DNA from: Candidatus Sumerlaeota bacterium
GTDB taxonomy: Bacteria; Sumerlaeota; Sumerlaeia; JAFGJS01
DNA: 44,271 nt
Direction: 5' to 3'
Assembly (NCBI GenBank): GCA_016928995.1
Contig: JAFGJS010000011.1
Location: forward strand, 1-44,271
Shown: positions 14,338 to 41,746 of the stretch, piece after piece
How positions within the stretch are numbered: the stretch's first letter is position 1
Layout: each line of letters begins with the position of its first letter
Translations under genes and position numbers: made by a program
Notes under the pieces: model-generated
Database searches by the model: none
The model's input: only the letters and a program-made list of their open reading frames with translations
Told to the model about the DNA's origin: nothing

Positions 14338-17300
14338 TTAATCGACGAGTTTAGCCGTCAGGAAAATCAACAGCGTCGTCCGCTCCAGGCTCTTCATGCT
14401 GCGTCCGAACAAGAAACTGCCGATGTACGGGATATCCTTCAGCACCGGCACGCCGGATTCCAACGCACGGTTGTATTCCTGTACCCAGCCGCCCAACACG
14501 ATCGTCTGACCATTGTTTACGCGAGCGACGGTTTGCAACTGTTTCGAATCGATCAGCCGCGATGTTGTCTCGTAAACGTAATCCTCACCAGACGGCGGGA
14601 TCGGATCGTAAACGCCCGTGGCGTATCCACCGATTTCGCTCGTTAAACTGCTCGGAGTTTGATAGTAAACCTGAGTCGCTGATTCGCGCACGGGATCGTC
14701 AAGCTGGATGTCGATATCCAACGTGATGCTGCCGAGTTCCGTGATCGTCGGGGAAACCTGCATATCAACCAAATCTTCCCCGCGGCGGATTTCATTGTCA
14801 TTGGTCGTGATGACGCCGCTTTGCAGGCGGCTGATCTGGAAGTCGGCGGACTCGCCGTTCAATACGGTCACGTGCGGGCCGTTCACTACCGTGACGATGC
14901 CCTGCGCTTCATACAAGCGCAGCTGCGCCTCCACGGGCGATTCGCCGCCAAAGATGAAATTCAAAATTGTCGTGCTCTTCAAGTACGGAGAATTTGTCAA
15001 CGTTTCAAGCGAAGGCTCAAACACCGATTGCGAGGCCTCGGCCAAATCCGATCCAAATGTCGCATCGATGTAATGGCTGTCGACATCAGGCATCGCCTCT
15101 CCAAGATTGAGAATCGACCACTCCATCGACATCTGCTTGGCGCGGTTGTCGTCCACTTCGACGACCTTCGTGGTGATGTTGACCTGTTTCACCGGGCGGT
15201 CGAATTGATCGATCCAGTCCAGCACCTCGGCGAACAATGACGGATCGTCATAGCGAATCAACAGGGCGTTCAGATCGTCAAACACATCGATCGAAATCGG
15301 CGCCTCTTCCACAGCCGGTTCTTCTTCGTCCTGCTGCGTTTCCTCTTCTTGAACAGCCGTGGTATCCAGCGGCCGGTAATTGATTGTCACACGGGCGCGT
15401 CCCTCGCCGCTGCTGGAGGACGAAGGATCGACTTCTTCGGCAATAATTTCATAGTCATCGACGAATTCTGAGCGAAACTCTTCAATCGTCGTGTCACGCG
15501 AATCCGTCGGCGTCCGGACGACGAACTCGGCCGAGTCGTCATTCTCATCATTTGCGTCGTTCTCATTGACGCGCGTGAGACGGATATTGATGTCGCGGAA
15601 TCGCAACTCATCTTCGACACGCAACGTTTTCGTAACGCTGTCGCCGCTCGCCGTGCCGGTATCATCTTCCGAAGTGATTCCCAGCACGACTTCCAAACGG
15701 CTGGCCAAACTTGCCGCGTCGGCGAATTTAAGGAAGATGACCTTGGAGCGCCGGCGCCGCTCGATTTCCGGCAGCGAGGCAATATAATCAGCCACTTTGC
15801 GAATATTCACCGGAGTGTCCGTGATCGTCATTTGCAGGGTTTGCTTGTCAAACCACATCTTGCGTCCGGCTGCGCGCGCCCTCGTGATGCCCTCGCCGGT
15901 GTAAAGGATCGTTTTCACCACTTCCTCGACCTTGGCGGCGAAACGCTCACGGCTGGTCTGGTCGGCCGAGAGAGCCTCGCGCGGAGTCAGGTCGAACACC
16001 GCGACATCCAGCCTGTCCGCTTCGATGTCGCGCAGGAATTCGCGATCCTGCAACAGTTGCTCGGCCTTACGAATGTTTTCCGGCGTGTCTTTGATGATGA
16101 TCGTGTCGCCTTCCACGAAAATCTCGCGCCCGATCAGCAAATCCTCAGCCTGGGTGCGCAGGATGGCCTCCAGCAGCACTTTGATCTTCGGACCTTTGCT
16201 TTCATCGGCGATCTTGAAGTCGCGGATGATCAACTGCGGCTCAACCTGGCTGGCGATTTCCGCCAGCACTGCCGCGGCCTTCTCCAAATTGGCTGCGGAG
16301 TCGTAAAGGAACAATGTGTTGTTTTCCTCGTCCAGCAGCATCTCCACTGAAGCGACCGTAGGCTGCTCATCGTGCCAAAGAATATTCTGCAGCTGCTTTT
16401 GGTCGATCATACGTTTCAGTTTCGGCATGTTCTCCGGATCGATATGAAACATGCGCGAGTGAAGATCAAGGCTGACGATAATGATGTCTTCGCCCGGCTG
16501 GCGTTCCCATTTCAGACCGATCGGCAGCAGGACGTGATTCAAAATAGTCTTTAATGGTTTGTCTTCGAACTTAGCCTGAACCTTGGGATTGATGCCGTCA
16601 GCGATCGTGAAATTGATGCCGGAAATCAACGACAGGGTATTAAGGAAATCGCTCAGATCCAGCGGCTGCTGCGTCTCGATCGTGCGTTTGACGTTCAACT
16701 TTTCCTGCGCATCCTGCTCCGCTTGCTCCGCGGCCATCAGATCCGCTCTTTGCGCCAGATATTCCTGATATTCAGCGTCCACTTCCTCCAGAAAGATCTC
16801 AGCCCTCTGATTGCCCGGATCAACCGTCAGCGCTTCGCGCGCCAGATTGACCGCGGTTTCAATGTTATCCGGCGAGCTCTGATACGCTTGCACGGCCTTC
16901 TGAAAGAGATTCTCTGACTGGGAGCGAATCAACGCGCGTTCATTATCGGCGCTCATGCTCTGCGCTTCAGCCATACGCGATTCGGCGCGTTGCAACAAGC
17001 GTTCGGCTTTCCGATTTTCAGGATCGAGCTGCCGGGCCAGTTTCAACTTCTCAATCGCCAGCTGATATTCCTCAGCTTTCATGTGCTCTTGAGCAATTTC
17101 AATGTTGCGATCCACACGCTCCTGCGTTCCCTCGCTTTTTTGCTCGTTCAGCCGCTCACGGAGTTTGCTGATTTCCCGATCCTGCCCGTCATACATCGCT
17201 TCCAGTTCGGAAATCACCACCTCGGCGGACAACAAGTCTTCGTTCGACAGATGCTTTTTCGCGGCGGCGATTTTCTCCTCGCGCAGATCTTCCGACATCC

Positions 17301-19392
17301 GCTCCATCTGCTTGGCCTGATCAAGGTCCATGATCCGGTTCTCGGCGCGCTCCTGCAACTCCAGCGCAGCCTTCAGATCGCTGTCGATCGCGTAGGCTTC
17401 ACCCGCCAATTTTGAAGCCTTCTCATAGTTCTCTTTCTCGAATTGCTCCTGAGCTTCAGCCAGACGCTCAAGCGCTTTTTCCGCGATGGGGGGGGTGTCT
17501 TCTTCTGTCACTGGCTCCTGTTCCGCCGCATCCATCGCTTGTTCTTCAGCTTCTTGAACCACTTCAACTTCTTCTACCGCTTCCGCCTGCTCTTCCTGCG
17601 CGACTTCTTCGACAGCCGCTTCCTCAACAACTTCCTCAACGGCTTCTTCAATCGCTTCCTCAACTGTTTCCTCGGCTGCGGCTTCTTCAACATCTTCAAT
17701 AATAGTCACCTGAGGCGTTTCCTCTTCCTGCTCTATCGACTCAACCTCATCCAGATCCATCGGCGCCTCTTCCGCTTCCACTTCAGCCTCGCCGGCCTGT
17801 TCCTCAATAGCGGCCTGCAGCGCTTGCTCTTCTGCTGCGGCCTGTTCCATGGCCATTTTCTCCGCCAGCGCCCGCGCCTCGGCCGCGGCCTGCTCTTGAG
17901 CCGCTTGTTCCTGGGCCATTATTCGTTCCATTTCGGCTTTTTCAGCGGCGGCTTGCTCCAAAGCCAGCCGCTGCATCTCGGCTTTTTCCGCAGCTGCTTG
18001 CTCTTGCGCTTGCGCCAATTGATCCGCTTCGGCTTGTTCCACGGCGGCCTGTTCCTGAGCCACTCTTTCCGCCTCGGCTTGTTCCGCGGCGAGTTTCTCG
18101 GCTTCCGCCTGCGCTTCAGCCTCGGCTTTTTCACGCGCCGCCCGCTCTTCCGCGGCTTGGGCTGCAGCGGCTTCTTCTGCCGCTTCCTGTTCCGCATTCA
18201 GCTGAGCCTGGCGCTCCTTCGCCTGATCCTCGCGGAGATCCTCAATCTTTCTGATCCCGCGCTCCGCGTCGCGCTGGTCGCCGACGAGCGCCAGCACAGC
18301 TTCATAGCGCTGCTGGGCCGCATCCAGATCATTGGCTTCCATCGCCGCTTCCGCCGCGGCCAGCAGGTCGTTGATCTCATTCTGTTGCTGCAGCGCGTCG
18401 GCTTCCTCGATTTGACGCTTCAGAGATTTTTCCGAGCGAGCCAGGTATTTGCGAGCCTTGCGATGCCCCTCGTCTTTTTCCAGGATCGCATTGAACTCCC
18501 CGATGGCCTGTTTGTACTTTTCATCGCGATACAGTTGATACGCCGATTGAAATTGCCGGTCCAGTTCCTCTTCGAGCGCGCGCGCGTTACGCTTCTCCTC
18601 TTCCTTGCGCGCGTCTTCCTCCAGGTCCGCTAATTTCTTCAATCCCTTTTCAGCCTTGCGGTTTTCAGGATCGAGTTTGAGCGCCTCTTCATAAGCCTTG
18701 CGGGCTTCATCGAAGTTTTTCAACGCGGACAAATCCTGAGCGCGATCCAGCAGACTCTCGATCTGCTCCTCTGGAGCGCTTTCAGCCGCGGTTTCCGTCT
18801 CCTCATCGGCGGCGGCAAGCCGCGGAGGACGGCTCTGGACTGGCTCAGCGAGTTTGACGGCTTGCGGAGCGCCATGACGCGCCTCCAGGGCGGCCTGTTC
18901 CCGCTGCAGACGATACACATTCTGCAGCTGCCGCCATGAATCCTTATAGCCGTCGCCCGCCAGCAGCCAGATCTCCTCCAGGCTTTTCTGGGCCGTTTTC
19001 AAGTCGCCGCTGTTGATCGCCGCGAGCCCAGACCGATAACGCTCGCTCAAAGCCTCTTCTTGATCAATGCGGTTCCAATTGAGCGTGGCTTTCAGCTCGG
19101 ATTGGATGACCTGAAACTGTTTGGCGTTTTCCATCAGCACGCGGATGTCTCGATGGTCGGGCGCGATGGCGGCATAGCGATCCAAATGCCGGATGACCGC
19201 CGCAAAGTCGGCCTGTTGATAGAGTTCTCCGGCTTTTTGAACACCGCCCTGCACAGCCCGGTCCGTCGAAACAGGATTCCGTTGTTCCGCCGCGTGCAGT
19301 TGGATTGCGCCTGCGCACATCACGGCAAGCGCCAGCGTCGTCAAGAGAGTACATTTGAGACGTCGAATCATTTCTCCACGGTTAGCTATCAT
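14338..19392 (-). CDS. Giant secretin with N-terminal TPR and Ala/Glu-rich coiled-coil regions
   Basis: This 1684-residue protein starts with a signal peptide (MIRRLKCTLLTTLALAVMCA core). TPR-like units follow (about 40-350, including FDEARKAYEEALKLDPENRKAEKGL spread over about 240-265), then an Ala/Glu/Gln-rich coiled coil (about 390-525), an acidic Glu/Val/Ala tract (about 530-630) and a second TPR block (about 650-880). The C-terminal third is a secretin: an STN-like domain (INFTIADGIN, near 930), NolW/N1-type repeats, and the pore domain (about 1507-1684) with NNGQTIVLGGWVQE and VPVLKDIPYIGSFLFG. Secretins are outer-membrane channels of type II secretion and type IV pili, normally 600-800 residues. 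The start at 19392 has AAGGAG about 10 bases upstream; 19440 is an alternative. Confidence 0.88.
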   Translation of the reverse strand: MIANRGEMIRRLKCTLLTTLALAVMCAGAIQLHAAEQRNPVSTDRAVQGGVQKAGELYQQADFAAVIRHLDRYAAIAPDHRDIRVLMENAKQFQVIQSELKATLNWNRIDQEEALSERYRSGLAAINSGDLKTAQKSLEEIWLLAGDGYKDSWRQLQNVYRLQREQAALEARHGAPQAVKLAEPVQSRPPRLAAADEETETAAESAPEEQIESLLDRAQDLSALKNFDEARKAYEEALKLDPENRKAEKGLKKLADLEEDARKEEEKRNARALEEELDRQFQSAYQLYRDEKYKQAIGEFNAILEKDEGHRKARKYLARSEKSLKRQIEEADALQQQNEINDLLAAAEAAMEANDLDAAQQRYEAVLALVGDQRDAERGIRKIEDLREDQAKERQAQLNAEQEAAEEAAAAQAAEERAAREKAEAEAQAEAEKLAAEQAEAERVAQEQAAVEQAEADQLAQAQEQAAAEKAEMQRLALEQAAAEKAEMERIMAQEQAAQEQAAAEARALAEKMAMEQAAAEEQALQAAIEEQAGEAEVEAEEAPMDLDEVESIEQEEETPQVTIIEDVEEAAAEETVEEAIEEAVEEVVEEAAVEEVAQEEQAEAVEEVEVVQEAEEQAMDAAEQEPVTEEDTPPIAEKALERLAEAQEQFEKENYEKASKLAGEAYAIDSDLKAALELQERAENRIMDLDQAKQMERMSEDLREEKIAAAKKHLSNEDLLSAEVVISELEAMYDGQDREISKLRERLNEQKSEGTQERVDRNIEIAQEHMKAEEYQLAIEKLKLARQLDPENRKAERLLQRAESRMAEAQSMSADNERALIRSQSENLFQKAVQAYQSSPDNIETAVNLAREALTVDPGNQRAEIFLEEVDAEYQEYLAQRADLMAAEQAEQDAQEKLNVKRTIETQQPLDLSDFLNTLSLISGINFTIADGINPKVQAKFEDKPLKTILNHVLLPIGLKWERQPGEDIIIVSLDLHSRMFHIDPENMPKLKRMIDQKQLQNILWHDEQPTVASVEMLLDEENNTLFLYDSAANLEKAAAVLAEIASQVEPQLIIRDFKIADESKGPKIKVLLEAILRTQAEDLLIGREIFVEGDTIIIKDTPENIRKAEQLLQDREFLRDIEADRLDVAVFDLTPREALSADQTSRERFAAKVEEVVKTILYTGEGITRARAAGRKMWFDKQTLQMTITDTPVNIRKVADYIASLPEIERRRRSKVIFLKFADAASLASRLEVVLGITSEDDTGTASGDSVTKTLRVEDELRFRDINIRLTRVNENDANDENDDSAEFVVRTPTDSRDTTIEEFRSEFVDDYEIIAEEVDPSSSSSGEGRARVTINYRPLDTTAVQEEETQQDEEEPAVEEAPISIDVFDDLNALLIRYDDPSLFAEVLDWIDQFDRPVKQVNITTKVVEVDDNRAKQMSMEWSILNLGEAMPDVDSHYIDATFGSDLAEASQSVFEPSLETLTNSPYLKSTTILNFIFGGESPVEAQLRLYEAQGIVTVVNGPHVTVLNGESADFQISRLQSGVITTNDNEIRRGEDLVDMQVSPTITELGSITLDIDIQLDDPVRESATQVYYQTPSSLTSEIGGYATGVYDPIPPSGEDYVYETTSRLIDSKQLQTVARVNNGQTIVLGGWVQEYNRALESGVPVLKDIPYIGSFLFGRSMKSLERTTLLIFLTAKLVD

Positions 19393-19582
19393 CGGGCGAA
19401 ACTCTCCTTCTTTGATCTTTTCGCGGGACATTTCAGTCATCAGCGATCAACCTGAATAGGATTAGGATTTCATCTTTGTATTCGGCCTTGCATGCGTTCA
19501 TTTTCGCCTGCGCCGCCAGTTTCACACATACCTTTTCGTTCTTATCGTTCTACGCCGTTTCCGGCGCTTGCAGTTGTTTCTG

Positions 19583-20162: not shown

Positions 20163-22175
20163 TTATCTTCGATTTCGCATCCAAGGCGGCACAGGCCTCC
20201 CTCCTTCACCAGCGCCGGGCCGAGTCCTAGTATCGTTCGCAGGGCCTCCTCCTCTTGGGCGCGCTTCGGATTCCGCCGGATTTCCGACAGCCGCAGCCGT
20301 TTCCTCCGGCAAATCCCGCCAGCGCGAATAACTATCATTGAGTTGCGCGCTGATCGCGAAATAGATCACTTCACGGCCCATGTCGGGGTCATGCTGCATA
20401 CGGTCGTCCTCAATTGTGATGATCTTTTCACCGCTGGCGTTCACTGCGAAGTATTCATCAGCCACCGGTCCCATCGTCAGTTGATTGACGAAATTCGTCA
20501 GCGTAGGCAGACGCGGTGCAATCCCCAAAATATTGATTTTGCCGAGTGAATCAATCTCGAGCCGCACCAGGGCAATCTGACCGGCTGGCCGTGCGTCCAA
20601 AATATGCCGATAAAGATCGAACCAGAAATTATTGTTGGGCGGAAGGGCCTTGGCCAGGTTCGCGTACTGATCAGCGACCTTCTTCCGGGCCTTTTCCGCT
20701 TCCGAGAGAGCGTTCGTAAAGGCCTGGATGCGATCGATCGTCTTGCGGAACGAACTGGCCGCCGAATGATAGTTGCGCGTCGCTTCCACGCCCACGTTGA
20801 AACTGCCCACGATCATAACAAATAGAATGATCCCCATCAGCATCATCAACACGTATTTCTTTTTACGGTTTTCCGCGCTCTTCAGCGACTTCGGCAGGAA
20901 GTTGATGTCGATCTGCCCCAGACCCATCCCGCTGAGCGCCTGCCCCAGGGCGATGGAGAAGGGATTGAAGTCTTCCGGCTGCGGTCCCGCGAATTCAATA
21001 AACTCTTTTTCGGCGAATTCCGCGGAATCCGCGACAGGCAAACCGAGCTTGTCTTCAAAGTAAGAGACGATGTTCGGCTGCATCGCCTGGCCGCCCGAGA
21101 GCTCAAGCAAATCCACGGAAACGCCGTCGGGCTGGGAGATGTAAAAGTCGAGCGAACGACGCAGTTCGCTCACAATGCGGTTTACCGGCTTCACCAGAGC
21201 ACGGCAGGCATCCAGGTTATACCGGCCGCCCTCATCATCCGTGTCGTCAAAGCCCGGCGTCACGATCTTGGCGCGCCGTTTCTTGATTTCCTCGGCCTCA
21301 TTGAAGTCGCCAAGGCCCAAAGCATCACGCACAGCCTTGGTCATCTCGTTGCCCGCGATAGGCACGCTGCGCACAAAGCCAAGCTGATCGGAATTCGAGC
21401 TTTGACGCCGAATCGCCAGGTCGAAAGTGGAAGCGCCCATATGGATGTAGGCCTTAACCTCTTCATACTCATCCATCCCGCCCATCTCTTCTTCCAGCGA
21501 TTCGAGCTCTTCTTCCAGGGTTTCCTTTTCGTCCTTGCCGTCTCCGCCTTTCTTCAGCCCCAACAGTCCGCCCTTTTTGCCCCGCGCGCCCCTCTTGCCT
21601 TTTTTGCCGATCACGCCCTTGGGCATGCCCCGGTCAAGGAAGACCTTCCCGTTGTATAGATCAAAGGAACTCACGCTGATCTGAACTGTTTGCAGTCCGC
21701 AGCGCGAAACCACATCCATGAAGTCTTCAATTAGATCTTTACGAATCGCGACCAGCAGCACGTCCACATACTCGCCGGTGCTGGAGCGGTCGAACACCTG
21801 CCATTGCAGGTCGGTCTGATCCGGCGGGAAGGGAATCTGCTGCCGCGCTTCAAATTTGATGATCCGCTCCAAGCGGTCGGGCGCCGTGGCCGGCAGCCGG
21901 ATCTTCCGGGTGAACACGGATTGCCCCGGCATGCTGAAGACAGCCTGCTTAGTTTGAATGCGGTGCTTTTTGATCAGATTCCGGATAGTACGGATTACCG
22001 CGTCGCGGCGCACCTCATCGGGCGCATCGTGGGGAGCCTCGATTTCCGCCTGGCAGACGTTTTGTATAACGAGGCTTTGCTGGTCCTTGTTCCGGTTAAG
22101 GGCCAGCTCGACAATTTTGACGGAATCGGCGCCATAATCAACGCCTAAACATCGCCGATATCGCATTGCAGCCAT
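20163..22175 (-). CDS. PilM-PilN fusion protein (type IV pilus/T2SS inner-membrane platform)
   Basis: Residues 1-420 are PilM-like: an actin/FtsA-type ATPase start CLGVDYGADSVKIVEL, FSMPGQSVFTRKIRLP, FEARQQIPFPPDQ, LLVAIRKD, and ELSGGQAMQPNI near 358. A low-complexity Lys/Gly then Glu-rich stretch (about 184-238) interrupts the PilM fold. At 420-460 the PilN signature DINFLP leads into a membrane helix (441-459), and a coiled periplasmic part with a PilN/PilO-like fold follows to about 610. The tail is Pro/Arg/Gly-rich. Separate PilM and PilN normally bind through the PilN INLLP-type peptide; here they are one chain. AAGGA lies 5 bases before the ATG at 22175. First gene of the operon. Confidence 0.87.
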   Translation of the reverse strand: MAAMRYRRCLGVDYGADSVKIVELALNRNKDQQSLVIQNVCQAEIEAPHDAPDEVRRDAVIRTIRNLIKKHRIQTKQAVFSMPGQSVFTRKIRLPATAPDRLERIIKFEARQQIPFPPDQTDLQWQVFDRSSTGEYVDVLLVAIRKDLIEDFMDVVSRCGLQTVQISVSSFDLYNGKVFLDRGMPKGVIGKKGKRGARGKKGGLLGLKKGGDGKDEKETLEEELESLEEEMGGMDEYEEVKAYIHMGASTFDLAIRRQSSNSDQLGFVRSVPIAGNEMTKAVRDALGLGDFNEAEEIKKRRAKIVTPGFDDTDDEGGRYNLDACRALVKPVNRIVSELRRSLDFYISQPDGVSVDLLELSGGQAMQPNIVSYFEDKLGLPVADSAEFAEKEFIEFAGPQPEDFNPFSIALGQALSGMGLGQIDINFLPKSLKSAENRKKKYVLMMLMGIILFVMIVGSFNVGVEATRNYHSAASSFRKTIDRIQAFTNALSEAEKARKKVADQYANLAKALPPNNNFWFDLYRHILDARPAGQIALVRLEIDSLGKINILGIAPRLPTLTNFVNQLTMGPVADEYFAVNASGEKIITIEDDRMQHDPDMGREVIYFAISAQLNDSYSRWRDLPEETAAAVGNPAESEARPRGGGPANDTRTRPGAGEGGRPVPPWMRNRR

Positions 22176-36362: not shown

Positions 36363-37511
36363 ATGCGCATCGGCATCGACGCAAGATATCTCAACGGCGA
36401 ATTCTCCGGCATCGCCACGTACAGCGAACGCCTGATCGAAAACATCGCCCAGCTCGACACGCACAATGAATACGTCGTGTATGTGCATCCGGGGCTGCGC
36501 CGCAAGCTCAACACCGGCGCCAATTTTAAAATCCGCACGTACAACGCGCGCGCCGTTTCGCTGCGCACGATGTGGGACTTCGGAAAGTTCATCGAACCCG
36601 ACCGGCTCGATCTGCTCCACTCGCACTTCCCACTCGCGCCGATCACCTGGGAAGGCCCGCTGCTCACCACGGTCCACGACCTGCAAGCGATCACCGTCCC
36701 CGACTTCACCGCCCGGCGAAAATGGCTCGTCCGGAAACTCTACGATCTGTTTTACCGCTTCGCCTATCCCGTCACGATCAAGCGCTCGCGCTATATCATC
36801 GCCGTGTCCAAAGCCACCGCGCATGAGATCGCCACGCTCTTCCCGGAAAAGGCGCACGATACCATCGTCACTCATTCCGGTCTTGACGAGTCCTACTTTG
36901 TGCCGCCCGATCCGCAAGTGGAGGAGGAGACGATAGAGAAACTCGGCCTTCCTCCATACTTCGTGCTCTACATCGGCTCCACGCGCCCGAATAAGAACCT
37001 GCCGAACATGATCCGCGCCTTCGGCAAGGTCATCGAGCACTCGCAAAACCTGAAGAACGACGTGCTCAACAACCTCAACCTCGTGCTGATCATCAATCCA
37101 GACCGCTTCTTCGCCCCCTGCCGGGAATTAATCAAGCGGCTCGGGATCAGCGACCGCGTCAGCATCTACCGCCAGCTCAGCGAAGAGCAGATCAAGGTTT
37201 TCTATCGCCGGGCGCGGCTGCTCAGCTTCGTCACGAAAAACGAGGGCTTCGGCTTTCCCATGCTCGAAGCGCAGGCCTGCGGCACGCCGGTGCTCGCCGC
37301 CAACCACGGAGCGCTCCCCGAAATCGCCAACGGCTCCACGCTCATCGTCGATCCCGACGACGTGGACGACATCACCGGCGGGCTGATCCGCCTGTTGATC
37401 AACGACAGCCTGATCGAGCAATGCCGCAAGGCCGGACTCGCCAACGCGCGCCGCTACACCTGGAAAAGCGCCGCCGAACGCGTCCACGAAATATACGAAA
37501 ATCTTTTCTGA
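36363..37511 (+). CDS. GT4-family glycosyltransferase
   Basis: The 382-residue protein begins MRIGIDARYLNGEFSGIATY, with the GIGRY-like acceptor loop, then HSHFPLAPITW, TTVHDLQAITVPDF, IIAVSKATAHEIATLFPE, VLYIGSTRPNKNLPNMI and FVTKNEGFGFPMLEAQACGTPVL. The last blocks are the GT4 nucleotide-sugar site (E-x7-E: EGFGFPMLE). Family members are mannosyl- or rhamnosyltransferases in surface glycan synthesis; the sugar cannot be told from sequence. AGGAACGCC precedes the ATG. It is alone, after the hisS pair, and the restriction island converges on it from the other side. Confidence 0.9.
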   Translation: MRIGIDARYLNGEFSGIATYSERLIENIAQLDTHNEYVVYVHPGLRRKLNTGANFKIRTYNARAVSLRTMWDFGKFIEPDRLDLLHSHFPLAPITWEGPLLTTVHDLQAITVPDFTARRKWLVRKLYDLFYRFAYPVTIKRSRYIIAVSKATAHEIATLFPEKAHDTIVTHSGLDESYFVPPDPQVEEETIEKLGLPPYFVLYIGSTRPNKNLPNMIRAFGKVIEHSQNLKNDVLNNLNLVLIINPDRFFAPCRELIKRLGISDRVSIYRQLSEEQIKVFYRRARLLSFVTKNEGFGFPMLEAQACGTPVLAANHGALPEIANGSTLIVDPDDVDDITGGLIRLLINDSLIEQCRKAGLANARRYTWKSAAERVHEIYENLF

Positions 37512-37595: not shown

Positions 37596-38054
37596 CTATG
37601 CCTCGTCGTGTGCATCTCCTTTTTGGGCCATGATCTTGTTCTTTGTCCGTGTGATGTATGCTGCCGCAGCCTCACGGATGACGTTCTCGTCATTGGAGGG
37701 TGGCTGGAGTTTGTAGGCCCATGCTCGCCCGGGATGGATAACGTCCCATGGAGAACGCTGCTGATTGTATCGCCCACTGCCAGGATCGTGGTTACCGAAG
37801 CCGTTGATCTTCTGATTCCACAAGGGCGAATACATCGCGACAAGCAGCGATTCCGCTAGAGGAATCCATATGTCATCCACGACCAAGAACCGGCATCGAA
37901 AATCGGAGATATTGAGGTTTTTAGCCGCTTCGATTGAACCGGCATGCTCGGCCAAGCGCTTGAATAGCGCCTGGCCGGGATCAGACCCAAGTCCGTAGCC
38001 ACCCTTGCGTGCACCAGGAGGGACTCGCAACCTCTCTGCAAGCGTGCCTCTCAA
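37596..38054 (-). pseudogene. Eco29kI-family GIY-YIG restriction endonuclease, C-terminal part only
   Basis: From VPPGARKG (residue 11) to the end, this 152-residue frame matches the Eco29kI family: ALFKRLAEH with Arg33 and His37, NLNISDFRCRFLVV, WIPLAESLL with Glu68, SPLWN, GFGNHDPGSGR and WDVIHPGRAWA. Eco29kI proteins are about 210 residues, and the N-terminal part with the two GIY-YIG tyrosines (GIY... and YVGKA) is missing. Upstream of VPPGARKG the frame reads unrelated sequence up to a TTG that overlaps the Mrr stop. The nuclease therefore lacks half its active site and is probably inactive, though it stays open and could be translated by coupling. Confidence 0.82.
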
Positions 38055-39082
38055 TCCGTGAATGTGCCGCTTGCAAACACTATGCGCGAGAACTCAAAGC
38101 CATCTACCAAGACAATGGGCCTCTTCCCAGCTTCGGTCGCCTCTCGTAACGCCGCCTTTGAAAAGTGGCTCGTTGTGACAACCGCACCACGCGCGTCCGG
38201 TTGTAGACTCCCGCGAAGCTCTGCCACTTCCTTTCGGCCCACTGTATGAAGCCAACGCTTCGCTTGAACCTGTAACAACAGGTCGCGCAGGGGCCACATC
38301 ATCTCACCCGCCAGCGCATTCACATCAATACCACCATCCTGACTGTATTTCGTGACATGCACATCACGAAATCCGGACCACACTAGCACGTCTCGGACAA
38401 GGTGCTCAAACCGATCCGGCGGCAAGACGAGCATTCGCTGCCGGAGGCGCTCTAGTTCTTCAGGATCAACCAGCGGATCCGCCGCTGGGGCAACCGACGA
38501 ACCGGATTCAACGACGGCATCATCATCGACCAATGGATCAGTCTTTTGCTGCTCCGCGATCATGTCAGCCATCAGCCTTGCATCGTGCTCTGGCGTTATG
38601 GCATCGAATGCTGAAAGCACGCGAAACTCGAATACCCAAACTGACCGGATGCCTCCGCGTACATCAACTTGTATTTCCTTGTAGTGCCTGAGGTAGTTGA
38701 GCAATCCAAGGAAACGCCAACGTCGCGGACCGTGCTTCTTGCTTCGGCGGCTTTCGACAAGAAGAAAGCAGTAGATCGGGAAGCCGTGTTCCGGCTGTTC
38801 AAGAAGCCGTCGATTCCGGCCACCAAGAGCCTGATCACCTTCTTGGCCTGCGCCTGTGTAGACTAGCACATCCCCCTCAACTCTATCATGGTAGGGATTC
38901 TCTGCCGCTATTCGCGCTGAAGGAACTGATGTTAGCAACACAGCGCGCCGCACTGTGCTGTCGTCATTTGTCTTCAAACGAATGCCGCCGGCATTGCCCA
39001 CGGAAAGAGTACGGTAGATATCGTCGTGTGTGTAGAGCTCGGAGGGGCGAAAGATATTCACACTAGCCTCTTCAGTCTGCAT
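38051..39082 (-). CDS. SRA-like + Mrr-catalytic restriction endonuclease (type IV-like)
   Basis: The 343-residue protein has an N-terminal SRA/YDG-like domain (about 8-160: FRPSELYTHDDIY, GNAGGIR, NPYHDRVEGDVLVYTGAGQEGDQ and LGGRNRRLLE), of the kind that recognises modified cytosine. An acidic linker (about 180-215) follows, then an Mrr-type PD-(D/E)XK nuclease (about 220-335: PPDRFEHLVRDVL, QDGGID with Asp253 and VQAKRW with Gln273-Lys275). This architecture fits a modification-dependent restriction enzyme. The ATG at 39082 overlaps the stop of the preceding small gene by 11 bases; a longer frame to 39151 overlaps that gene further. Its stop overlaps the Eco29kI remnant. Confidence 0.83.
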   Translation of the reverse strand: MQTEEASVNIFRPSELYTHDDIYRTLSVGNAGGIRLKTNDDSTVRRAVLLTSVPSARIAAENPYHDRVEGDVLVYTGAGQEGDQALGGRNRRLLEQPEHGFPIYCFLLVESRRSKKHGPRRWRFLGLLNYLRHYKEIQVDVRGGIRSVWVFEFRVLSAFDAITPEHDARLMADMIAEQQKTDPLVDDDAVVESGSSVAPAADPLVDPEELERLRQRMLVLPPDRFEHLVRDVLVWSGFRDVHVTKYSQDGGIDVNALAGEMMWPLRDLLLQVQAKRWLHTVGRKEVAELRGSLQPDARGAVVTTSHFSKAALREATEAGKRPIVLVDGFEFSRIVFASGTFTD

Positions 39083-39356
39083 GACCCGCCGATGCTGCCG
39101 TGTGCTGCAAACAGACGTCGGTATAGTCTCCGACTTCCACGACTGCGGCAAGCGTAAACAGTCGACTGCGAATCTCTCGGGGGATGCTCATGTCATCAGT
39201 GCTCTCTTTAGTGATCTGCCGGAACGCAGATTCCGTCAAAATAATGCCAAACTCACCTTCGGCCCAGCAGCTAAGGGCTAACAGCGTCTTCCACTGCTGA
39301 TACTCAGAATAGCTCTCGGGGATGAGACAAAACGTGTGAGTCTGGTCGGTCTTCAT
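39072..39356 (-). CDS. Small unknown protein coupled to the SRA-Mrr nuclease
   Basis: I do not recognise the family. The 94-residue protein begins MKTDQTHTFCLIPESYSEYQ and contains LLALSCWAEGEFGIILTESAF and SIPREIRSRLFTLAAVVEVGDY. It has no signal or membrane segment and no zinc pattern. GGAG lies 8 bases before the ATG at 39356. Its end overlaps the SRA-Mrr start by 11 bases, so the two are translationally coupled and likely act together, perhaps as regulator or partner of the nuclease (inference). It lies between the truncated methyltransferase and the nuclease. Confidence 0.6.
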   Translation of the reverse strand: MKTDQTHTFCLIPESYSEYQQWKTLLALSCWAEGEFGIILTESAFRQITKESTDDMSIPREIRSRLFTLAAVVEVGDYTDVCLQHTAASAGHAD

Positions 39357-39405
39357 GCTGCCAACTCCAGCCCGCACTGGCAATGTCGAGAATCTGGCAA
39401 CGCCA

Positions 39406-39858
39406 TCATGTTCTCCCCGCCGGACACGTCATATACTGAAGAATGATATAGTGGAAGTAGCTCGCGAAGCTTTGGCGAAGCAAGCCTTTCACATTCTCGA
39501 AAACAAAGCATTCTGGACGCAGTTCGCGGACGGCGCGAACCGCTTCGGGAAACAAGTCACGCTTGTCCTGATAGGCCCTGTGCTTGCCTCCGAGAGAGAA
39601 GGGCTGGCACGGTGGCCCTCCTGCCACCATATTAACATGGTCGGCAAGTTCGGAGTAGTGGATGGTTCGCACGTCATCAGGGAAGAGCTTCCATCCCTTG
39701 ACCAAGGGATGGCCAAGGGACTCATTCATGTGAATAGTCGAGCAAGCATGTTCGTTCCGCTCGATCAGGGCGGAATGATGCCATCCGCTTTGCGCCAACC
39801 CAAGCGCAAGACCGCCTGCCCCCGTGAACAACTCGATTGATGACTGTCCGTTCTTCAT
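39406..39858 (-). pseudogene. Cytosine-5 DNA methyltransferase, N-terminal half only (M.Eco29kI-like)
   Basis: The 150-residue frame has C5-methyltransferase motif I (ELFTGAGGLALGL, about 9-21), motif IV with the catalytic Cys84 (GGPPCQPFSLGG, 80-91) and motif VI (FVFENVKGLLRQSF, 118-131). After ILQ (residue 141) it runs into YMTCPAGRT and stops. Motifs VIII to X and the target-recognition domain, about 200 residues in this family, are absent, and I found no continuation in the other frames up to the next gene. It should be inactive alone. Its ATG at 39858 overlaps the vsr end by 4 bases, an intact operon-like joint. Confidence 0.85.
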
Positions 39859-40271
39859 GTTCCTTCCAAGAACCGCTTGATCCGGCTCCTGAGAACCGAT
39901 TCCTTCCCGACTTGGCACTCCCAAATAACCATCACACCCCAGCCACGCTTGCGGAGTTCCCACTTGATAGCAGCGTCTCGCACCTTGTTCTTGGCGAGTT
40001 TTGGTTCCCAAAATGAGCGCTTCGTACGTGGCTGACGATATTGTCTACAGCCGTGCTGGTGCCAGAAGCACCCATGGACGAAGATTACCTTCTTTCTAGA
40101 GCGAAAGACAAGATCAGGTTTGCCCGGCAGGTCGCGCGCGTGCAGACGGTATCTGTAACCCATGCCGTGAACAAGCCGTCGGACCGTCATTTCCGGTTTG
40201 GTGTTAGCATTTCGGATACGTGACATGCGTTCGCTACGCTCTGACGGAGTCAGCGGATCGTATCGAGACAT
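39855..40271 (-). CDS. vsr: Very short patch repair endonuclease
   Basis: The 138-residue length is standard. It begins with TPSERSERMSRIRNANTKPEM and contains RRLVHGMGYRYRLH, LPGKPDLVF (catalytic Asp), VIFVHGCFWHQHGC (the zinc/His/Cys block) and GWGVMVIWECQV, the complete Vsr signature. Vsr nicks T:G mismatches that arise from deamination of 5-methylcytosine and so accompanies C5 methyltransferases. GGAG lies 8 bases before the ATG. It is the first gene of the restriction island and overlaps the methyltransferase remnant. A TTGTCA (complement of about 40336-40341) might be a -35 box, weakly supported. Confidence 0.93.
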   Translation of the reverse strand: MSRYDPLTPSERSERMSRIRNANTKPEMTVRRLVHGMGYRYRLHARDLPGKPDLVFRSRKKVIFVHGCFWHQHGCRQYRQPRTKRSFWEPKLAKNKVRDAAIKWELRKRGWGVMVIWECQVGKESVLRSRIKRFLEGT

Positions 40272-40445: not shown

Positions 40446-41396
40446 TCAGCTATCCCGCGGCACGGCCAGCATGCGTTCCAGCGAGCGGCGGGCGCCTTCG
40501 GCGACTTCGGGATCGACATCGATTTCGTGAATTTCCTCTTCCAGCGAGCGCTTGAGGTGCTCGAGCGTGATGCATTTCATGTAGGGGCAATTCAACCGGC
40601 AGCCGATGCAGCCGTCGGCCATGATGAATTCCTTATCTGGATAGCGCTTCTTGAGCTGATGCAGCATGCCGTTTTCCGTGGCGATCAGGAAGGTCTTCGC
40701 CTGCGGGTATTTCGCCACGCGCTCCAGCATCGCCGTGGTGCTGCAGACTTCGTCGGCAATGGCGATGATGTCCTCGCGGCACTCCGGATGGGCGATGATC
40801 ACACAGCCCGGATACCGGTCGCGCGTCTTGCGCACATTGGCGCCGCGCAGAATGTCATGCACCGAGCAGCAGCCGTCGTAAATCACGATGTCGCTGCCCG
40901 GCAGCTGCTCCGCCGTCCAGCGGCCCAAGTTGCGGTCCGGCGTGAACAGCACCGGCGCATCGCCCAGGCTGCGCACCACGCTGACGGCGTTGGCCGAGGT
41001 GCAGCAGATGTCCGAGACGGCCTTCACCGCCGCGGTGGAATTGATGTACGTCACCACCTTGCGGCCGGGATAGCGCTGCTTCCATTCCTCCAGGCTCTCC
41101 GGCGTGATCGAGTCGGCCAGGGAGCAGCCGGCGGCCAGGTTCGGCAGGAGCACCTTCTTCTGCGGCGAGAGCAGCTTCGCCGACTCGGCCATGAAATGCA
41201 CGCCGCAAAAAACGATGATCGCCGCGTCCGTCTTGCTCGCCTCGATGGACAGCCCCAGGCTGTCGCCGGTGATGTCCGCCACGTCCTGAATTTCCGGGAA
41301 CTGATAATTATGCGCTAAAATGACCGCGTTCTTTCTGCGAGCCAAATCACGAATTTCTTCCTGCAACTCTGTATAATTTTCAGCCGAAGCCGTCAT
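40446..41396 (-). CDS. nadA: Quinolinate synthase NadA
   Basis: The 316-residue protein condenses iminoaspartate with dihydroxyacetone phosphate to quinolinate in NAD synthesis. It has ILAHNYQFPEIQDVADITGDSL, VHFMAESAKLLSP, LAAGCSLAD (Cys91), IAHPEC (Cys206) and CIGCRLNCPYMKC (Cys270 the likely ligand), the three cysteines of the 4Fe-4S cluster, and the YINSTAAVKA and TENGMLHQL blocks. The ATG at 41396 is preceded by GGGAGGGATAGG; the longer frame to 41531 lacks similarity. nadB and nadC are not adjacent. It follows the restriction island on the same strand after a 174-base AT-rich gap. Confidence 0.95.
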   Translation of the reverse strand: MTASAENYTELQEEIRDLARRKNAVILAHNYQFPEIQDVADITGDSLGLSIEASKTDAAIIVFCGVHFMAESAKLLSPQKKVLLPNLAAGCSLADSITPESLEEWKQRYPGRKVVTYINSTAAVKAVSDICCTSANAVSVVRSLGDAPVLFTPDRNLGRWTAEQLPGSDIVIYDGCCSVHDILRGANVRKTRDRYPGCVIIAHPECREDIIAIADEVCSTTAMLERVAKYPQAKTFLIATENGMLHQLKKRYPDKEFIMADGCIGCRLNCPYMKCITLEHLKRSLEEEIHEIDVDPEVAEGARRSLERMLAVPRDS

Positions 41397-41746
41397 GGTT
41401 CCTATCCCTCCCTGCCTCGAAATGACGAATGATCGCTCCGCGCCGTCCGATCCGCCGAAATCACGCCCATCGGGCGATTCCCAGCGCTGAGCCGTTCCAA
41501 CAATGCTTGTTGAATTGCGCCGCATGGTCAAGGCCGGAATTCAAGCGACGTGGATCGCCCCTGCGGCAGCAACGCGCAAAATTCAACATGCAATGTATCG
41601 CATATTGACATGGTCAGGGGCGGTGTGATTAAATTCAGTATAGGTGGGATTCGCGGAAACTCACTGGAGCTCACGGCCAGTACGACAATCAAACCGTTCC
41701 GCGAAAATCCGGCTTTCATCGTATGTTGACACAAGGTAAATCCACC
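41397..41746. other. Divergent intergenic region between nadA and the STAS-like gene
   Basis: 350 bases without a supported gene. A probable promoter for the plus-strand gene lies at 41605-41634; the nadA ribosome site is at the left end. Short open frames extend the nadA frame or overlap both genes and have no family signature. Confidence 0.45.
41605..41634 (+). promoter_or_regulatory. Possible sigma-70-type promoter of the STAS-like gene
   Basis: A perfect TTGACA (41605-41610) followed after 18 bases by TTAAAT (41629-41634, 4 of 6 matches). The leader to the ATG at 41747 would be about 105 bases. The 18-base spacer and weak -10 make this tentative. Confidence 0.35.

Follow-up and report, generated by a model that had tools for sequence, protein, structure and literature searches.

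The question raised by this locus is why a gene for a probable 5-methylcytosine (5mC)-dependent nuclease lies between the broken methylase and nuclease genes of a restriction-modification (RM) system of the Eco29kI type. The window, that is, the whole stretch of DNA that was analysed, is one entire contig (C48; 44,271 nucleotides) from a 4.5 Mb genome in 161 contigs, which belongs to a small phylum. The reading preferred here, with a probability of roughly 0.55, is that Eco29kI-type systems repeatedly give way to an MspJI-like gene, which leaves a modification-dependent defence behind; part of this reading is a conflict with the methylase that we infer.

Layout of the locus and remains of the RM genes

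Five minus-strand frames had been described from the sequence-only reading and all were found. In order, they are vsr, the N-terminal part of a C5-methyltransferase gene (M), a small gene (X), SRA-Mrr, and the C-terminal part of an Eco29kI-type nuclease gene (R). The locus is flanked by nadA (40446-41531, minus strand) and by a frame named glycosyltransferase-like from its sequence (36363-37511, plus strand). The T:G mismatch endonuclease gene vsr (39855-40271, minus strand; PF03852) scored 140.5 bits against TIGR00632, for which the cut-off is 97.85, so that its earlier description as intact was upheld. It overlaps the start of M by 4 bp. Elsewhere in the window, close to a PilM-like gene (20163-22175), positions 14338-19440 encode a 1700-residue protein that has TPR repeats and, at its C-terminus, a secretin domain; for the secretin of a type II secretion system or type IV pilus this size is unusual.

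The M gene starts with an ATG at 39858. Its first remnant (39436-39858, minus strand) comprises residues 1-136, the last of which ends at 39436, and the open frame continues to 39406. It matches PF00145 at profile positions 3-127 of 324, retains the catalytic motif PPCQPF and shows 81% identity to the intact M of two control loci, L115 and L125. A second, out-of-frame remnant (39394-39432, minus strand) was revealed by tblastn with intact M proteins and corresponds to codons ~321-334 with the GGENMM motif. Its sequence, DVSGGENMMALP, has 82% DNA identity to the intact M of L115 over 39 bp (blastn, E 3e-5). Between the two remnants 543 bp of M are gone, and what is left, codons 1-136 and ~321-334, does not make up a complete C5-methyltransferase.

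The remnant of R (37596-38024, minus strand) begins at residue ~77 and is 76% identical to the R of L115. Its match to PF09517 (RE_Eco29kI) covers only positions 41-163 of 164, and the GIY and YIG motifs are therefore lost. Y49 and Y76 are missing, and the downstream residues R104, H108, E142 and N154 are present. As the PF00145 and RE_Eco29kI matches are both partial, M and R each lack essential parts, and both are dead in the window.

Intact relatives of the system were sought and found, L115 and L114 among them, and in these the cassette is absent. The closest one found was L115, where vsr is cut by the end of the locus and full-length M and R lie 9 bp apart without X and SRA-Mrr. M and R are likewise adjacent in L125 (with a shortened R), L114 and others, at a tight and conserved spacing of -4 to 9 bp in those that could be cleanly measured. 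DNA homology between L115 and the window runs over 40058-39435, is followed by 543 bp of L115 that the window lacks, and resumes at 39432-39394. The blastn blocks against L115 delimit an inserted segment of 1369 bp (38025-39393, minus strand) carrying X and SRA-Mrr, which stands in place of 413 bp of L115, namely M codons 335-390 (the last 56), the stop codon, the 9-bp spacer and R codons 1-76.

The earlier proposal that a cassette had replaced the 3' end of M and the 5' end of R is supported by this comparison, but it needs to be extended, since M also lost the internal 543 bp and the event recurs in Eco29kI-type loci of other lineages. The junction proposed on the R side was correct, as R resumes at 38024. 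On the M side, the break seen at 39435 is real, but it belongs to the separate internal deletion; the second M remnant (39432-39394) places the border of the insert at ~39393/39394. No convincing terminal repeats or target duplications were detected flanking the segment.

The SRA-Mrr protein and the small gene X

The SRA-Mrr frame (38051-39082, minus strand, ATG at 39082) encodes 343 residues. Its C-terminal domain matches PF04471 (Mrr_cat) above the cut-off (E 5e-22), and the PD-QxK residues D249 and Q273-A-K275 are invariant in an alignment of 14 homologues. The SRA-like domain claimed earlier was not recovered by sequence, the SAD_SRA match (E 0.16) being below the Pfam cut-off, but it was borne out by fold. 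A structure model built from 12 homologues (mean pLDDT 71.5) was matched by Foldseek to MspJI (E 2.7e-16) and AspBHI (E 2.5e-14), and also to the SRA domains of KRYPTONITE, SUVH and ScoMcrA. The protein combines an SRA-like N-terminal domain, recognised by fold, with an Mrr-type PD-QxK domain, the two parts of the MspJI family architecture (PMC12707154). Because the model resembles MspJI and AspBHI, SRA-Mrr is probably a nuclease dependent on 5mC or 5hmC; that it cleaves 5mC DNA and serves in defence is what we infer from this likeness. The gene is under purifying selection (pN/pS 0.17, window versus the related locus L030). A search for close relatives in viral contigs, plasmids and phages gave only distant SRA-HNH or Mrr-domain matches.

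The X gene (39072-39356, minus strand, 94 residues) overlaps the start of SRA-Mrr by 11 nt. It has no match in Pfam, NCBIfam or PADLOC, and its model (pLDDT 70) has no PDB match under E 1. Homologues, 56-60% identical, occur in L030 and L031 only. In L035 and L039 a gene of 86-87 residues without Pfam match follows SRA-Mrr in place of X (L111:7044-7307 and L112:7639-7899). An apparent M tail overlapping the X start in the window, L030 and L031 had been considered as a sign that X and SRA-Mrr are an old part of the operon. This was dropped because the 13 conserved bp resemble the ribosome-binding site of X and the intact M of L115 ends differently.

Recurrence of the association and loss of the methylase

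When 84,980 species genomes were scanned with an SRA alignment, 12 close relatives of SRA-Mrr (L030-L041) emerged; two loci, L109 and L110, were added by genome searches, giving 15 with the window. SRA-Mrr is full-length in all of them except L041, where only residues 5-120 aligned. In 13 of the 15, vsr, M or R, usually broken, lies near SRA-Mrr in one of several layouts, and none of the three was found near it in L032 and L041. The component families are known, but none of the papers searched was found to describe MspJI-like genes that repeatedly displace RM systems. Likewise, no published description of SRA-Mrr within broken Eco29kI-type loci was found in the open-access literature with the terms tried.

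Two loci share the gene order of the window with other breakpoints. L030 has vsr, M 1-45, X, SRA-Mrr and R 39-62, and L031 has M 1-121 with a frameshift, X, SRA-Mrr and R from ~135. The stretch of the window homologous to L030 (37558-40289, minus strand; blastn blocks 40289-39730, 39370-38048 and 37631-37558) begins a short distance ahead of vsr and extends ~35 bp beyond the R stop. A chimeric assembly of this metagenome-assembled (MAG) contig might be suspected in a genome of 161 contigs, but it is scarcely credible, because L030 and L031, from other assemblies, share the order and the partial M and R while differing in breakpoints.

The remaining layouts are more diverse. In L035 and L039, vsr and the N-terminal part of M are on the strand opposite to SRA-Mrr, and L039 also has an N-terminal part of R. 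L038 has vsr, M to ~284 with stops, and SRA-Mrr; L109 has an R-like frame, SRA-Mrr and a C-terminal part of M. L036 has vsr 2-81, SRA-Mrr and a full R between ureG-like and ureF-like genes, and L040 has SRA-Mrr and a full R. L034 and L037 have vsr fragments, and L033 a distant R. In L110 (3850-6028), a compact trio of genes without M lies within an acyl-CoA metabolism cluster and encodes SRA-Mrr, an intact Vsr and a GIY-YIG protein that belongs to another family.

Alternatively, SRA-Mrr, a GIY-YIG protein and Vsr could act as a joint defence without M, of which the truncated forms would be remnants. Such a design is suggested by the trio of L110, by the full-length R-like frame that overlaps SRA-Mrr in L109, and by purifying selection on the R of L036 and L040 (pN/pS 0.27 [0.20-0.35]). 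This explanation is nevertheless most improbable: an intact R is missing from most loci, the window included, SRA-Mrr of L032 is without such neighbours, and the R-like frame of L109 lacks several catalytic residues. In the R of L040, a Cys takes the position of the catalytic R104, a residue whose replacement by alanine leaves ~2% activity (PMC1952068).

The R that adjoins SRA-Mrr in L036 (L036:6040-6711, also L113) is full-length and of Eco29kI type, with all catalytic residues. No cognate methylase for it was found in that genome, which has CCGCGG sites. A DraR1-like N4-methylase was considered as its partner and rejected, as the match was only 27%. Avoidance of CCGCGG was likewise rejected: there are 0 sites in the 13 kb around L036, where R is intact, yet 109 in 400 kb, and most sister genomes without SRA-Mrr show an equal shortage.

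The state of M was compared with control loci obtained by PF09517 searches in two other phyla. M is whole in none of the seven SRA-Mrr loci that retain some of it (window, L030, L031, L035, L038, L039 and L109) and in all 14 matched C5-type controls without SRA-Mrr. The corresponding probability, 1/C(21,7) = 8.6e-6, is optimistic because there is kinship among the 7 and the 14 loci, most of which come from MAGs. Six loci from plasmids, phage and class-mates (L016-L022) likewise have a whole M. A shortened R beside a whole M, the reverse of the SRA-Mrr loci, is seen in controls L124 and L125. Decay of R first, while M stays whole, is the usual safe order. As a separate observation, the Eco29kI-type R family pairs with two unrelated methylase types, since in four further control loci (L131-L134), from four genomes of one phylum, it accompanies an N4-type methylase, judged from the SPPY motif.

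These counts bear on a simpler explanation, namely that X and SRA-Mrr formed a defence-island insertion that hit the RM locus by chance, after which M and R rotted without conflict. RM genes often decay, and the internal deletions of the window and L030 lie away from the cassette, as such decay would allow. It is quite unlikely all the same, for the genes are found together repeatedly and in several layouts, and the gene that is broken is always M, where decaying controls lose R instead. An R family so rare, present in 17 of 318 and 6 of 304 genomes of two phyla, would also seldom be struck by random insertion. The earlier logic of a modification-dependent nuclease set against a methylase is plausible as judged from sequence and fits the skewed loss of M.

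Trees and selection give a more mixed picture. On the tree of the N-terminal part of M, the remnants associated with SRA-Mrr need four changes, and their grouping in one clade was rejected (AU p 0.0036); the starred branches of that tree alone force only two entries. For R, one clade was not rejected (p 0.07). SRA-Mrr has entered at least two separate lineages by the starred branches, and probably four, the number given by parsimony. Between the window and L030, both vsr (pN/pS 0.17 [0.11-0.25]) and M codons 1-46 (0.16 [0.04-0.42]) are under purifying selection. It follows from the latter that M was functional until after the two had split, and therefore the segment with SRA-Mrr either came into the two lineages independently or coexisted for a while in one cell with a live M. 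The order of events in the sequence-only reading, in which the nuclease made sense once the methylase was gone, was not shown by these data, which have M alive late.

A different history could be read from the same values. An ancient vsr-M-X-SRA-Mrr-R operon may have worked as a combined system, R acting against unmodified DNA and SRA-Mrr against otherwise modified DNA; M and R then decayed in each lineage, and the intact vsr-M-R loci lost the extra genes. Selection on vsr and M codons 1-46 in step with SRA-Mrr (window/L030, dS 0.6-1.0) agrees with this, as do the common order in the window, L030 and L031, the order vsr-M-SRA-Mrr in L038 and vsr-SRA-Mrr-R in L036. Still, it is unlikely. A full-length five-gene locus was looked for and none was found in the scans made, the M-R spacing of intact relatives is tight and conserved, and about six changes would be needed on the M tree as against four.

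Repeated displacement by the MspJI-like gene is preferred, with a confidence that is limited mainly because M codons 1-46 were under purifying selection. If the segment preceded the window/L030 split, a working M coexisted with SRA-Mrr, which speaks against a strict conflict. Further points against the preferred reading are that in L036 R is full-length and no M was found, and that the R tree is undecided.

Proposed conversion and comparison with known systems

In the proposed scheme, the ancestral locus would be a complete vsr-M-R system of Eco29kI type, in which M makes 5mC, R cuts unmethylated sites and Vsr mends the T:G mismatches left by 5mC. A segment with X and the MspJI-like SRA-Mrr would then replace M at its 3' end and R at its 5' start, with a further internal stretch of M lost as well. 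In the remaining locus, modified cytosines of incoming DNA may be read by the SRA domain, with the Mrr domain making a cut next to them. The 5mC marks of M would turn the host chromosome into a target of SRA-Mrr, which may explain why M is in every case either broken or missing. Within CCGCGG, it is the second cytosine that M.Eco29kI methylates, giving C(m5C)GCGG (PMC3039593), and the MspJI-type site is mCNNR (PMC12707154). Since the methylated site fits mCNNR, a cell with active M and SRA-Mrr would be expected to attack itself, the specificity of SRA-Mrr being assumed to be MspJI-like. The locus would act as one arm of an alternative of the DpnI/DpnII type.

That related genes sit in broken loci of other bacteria suggests that methylating and methyl-cutting defences exclude each other. 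Such conflicts are usually argued from laboratory strains. Here the genetic outcome could be read across many genomes, with the methylase dead and the methyl-dependent nuclease alive. A broader generalisation, held tentatively and with some doubt, is that 5mC-dependent nuclease genes enter C5-RM lineages chiefly by insertion into the methylase, so that Eco29kI-type loci would time and again turn into methyl-dependent restriction loci, in a one-way epigenetic switch. If so, vsr and the gene stumps would be its fossil record.

Eco29kI RM systems with vsr, as in Burkholderia phage Milagro and a Paraburkholderia plasmid, belong to the same families as the Vsr and the M and R remnants of the window, and the order vsr-M-R is that of L018 and L019, both of Eco29kI type; in classical eco29kI, R precedes M (PMC3039593). 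The window differs from them in its truncated M and R and in the 1369 bp with X and SRA-Mrr between the two. Members of the MspJI/AspBHI family, the best fold matches, share the N-terminal SRA-like and C-terminal Mrr-like PD-QxK domains; SRA-Mrr is shorter (343 versus ~390-450 residues), is 16-18% identical to them and, unlike them, is located in a broken Eco29kI-type RM locus.

Pectobacterium provides a documented case, PcaRCI/PcaRCII, in which an RM system conflicts with a methyl-dependent nuclease (PMC8989522). There, as in the present proposal, a C5-methyltransferase RM system and a 5mC-dependent nuclease are opposed; the nuclease gene is silenced by methylation in that case, whereas in the window the methylase is destroyed. 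At the pneumococcal Dpn locus, methyl-dependent and methyl-blocked restriction occur as alternatives (PMC12707154), and the proposal made here would likewise have the two alternate at one locus. As for alleles of this kind, the intact vsr-M-R of L115 and the SRA-Mrr forms come from different organisms, with no same-species pair seen. DpnI and DpnII deal with adenine marks and are cleanly swapped, whereas in the window the marks would be on cytosine and the old system has been left as wreckage.
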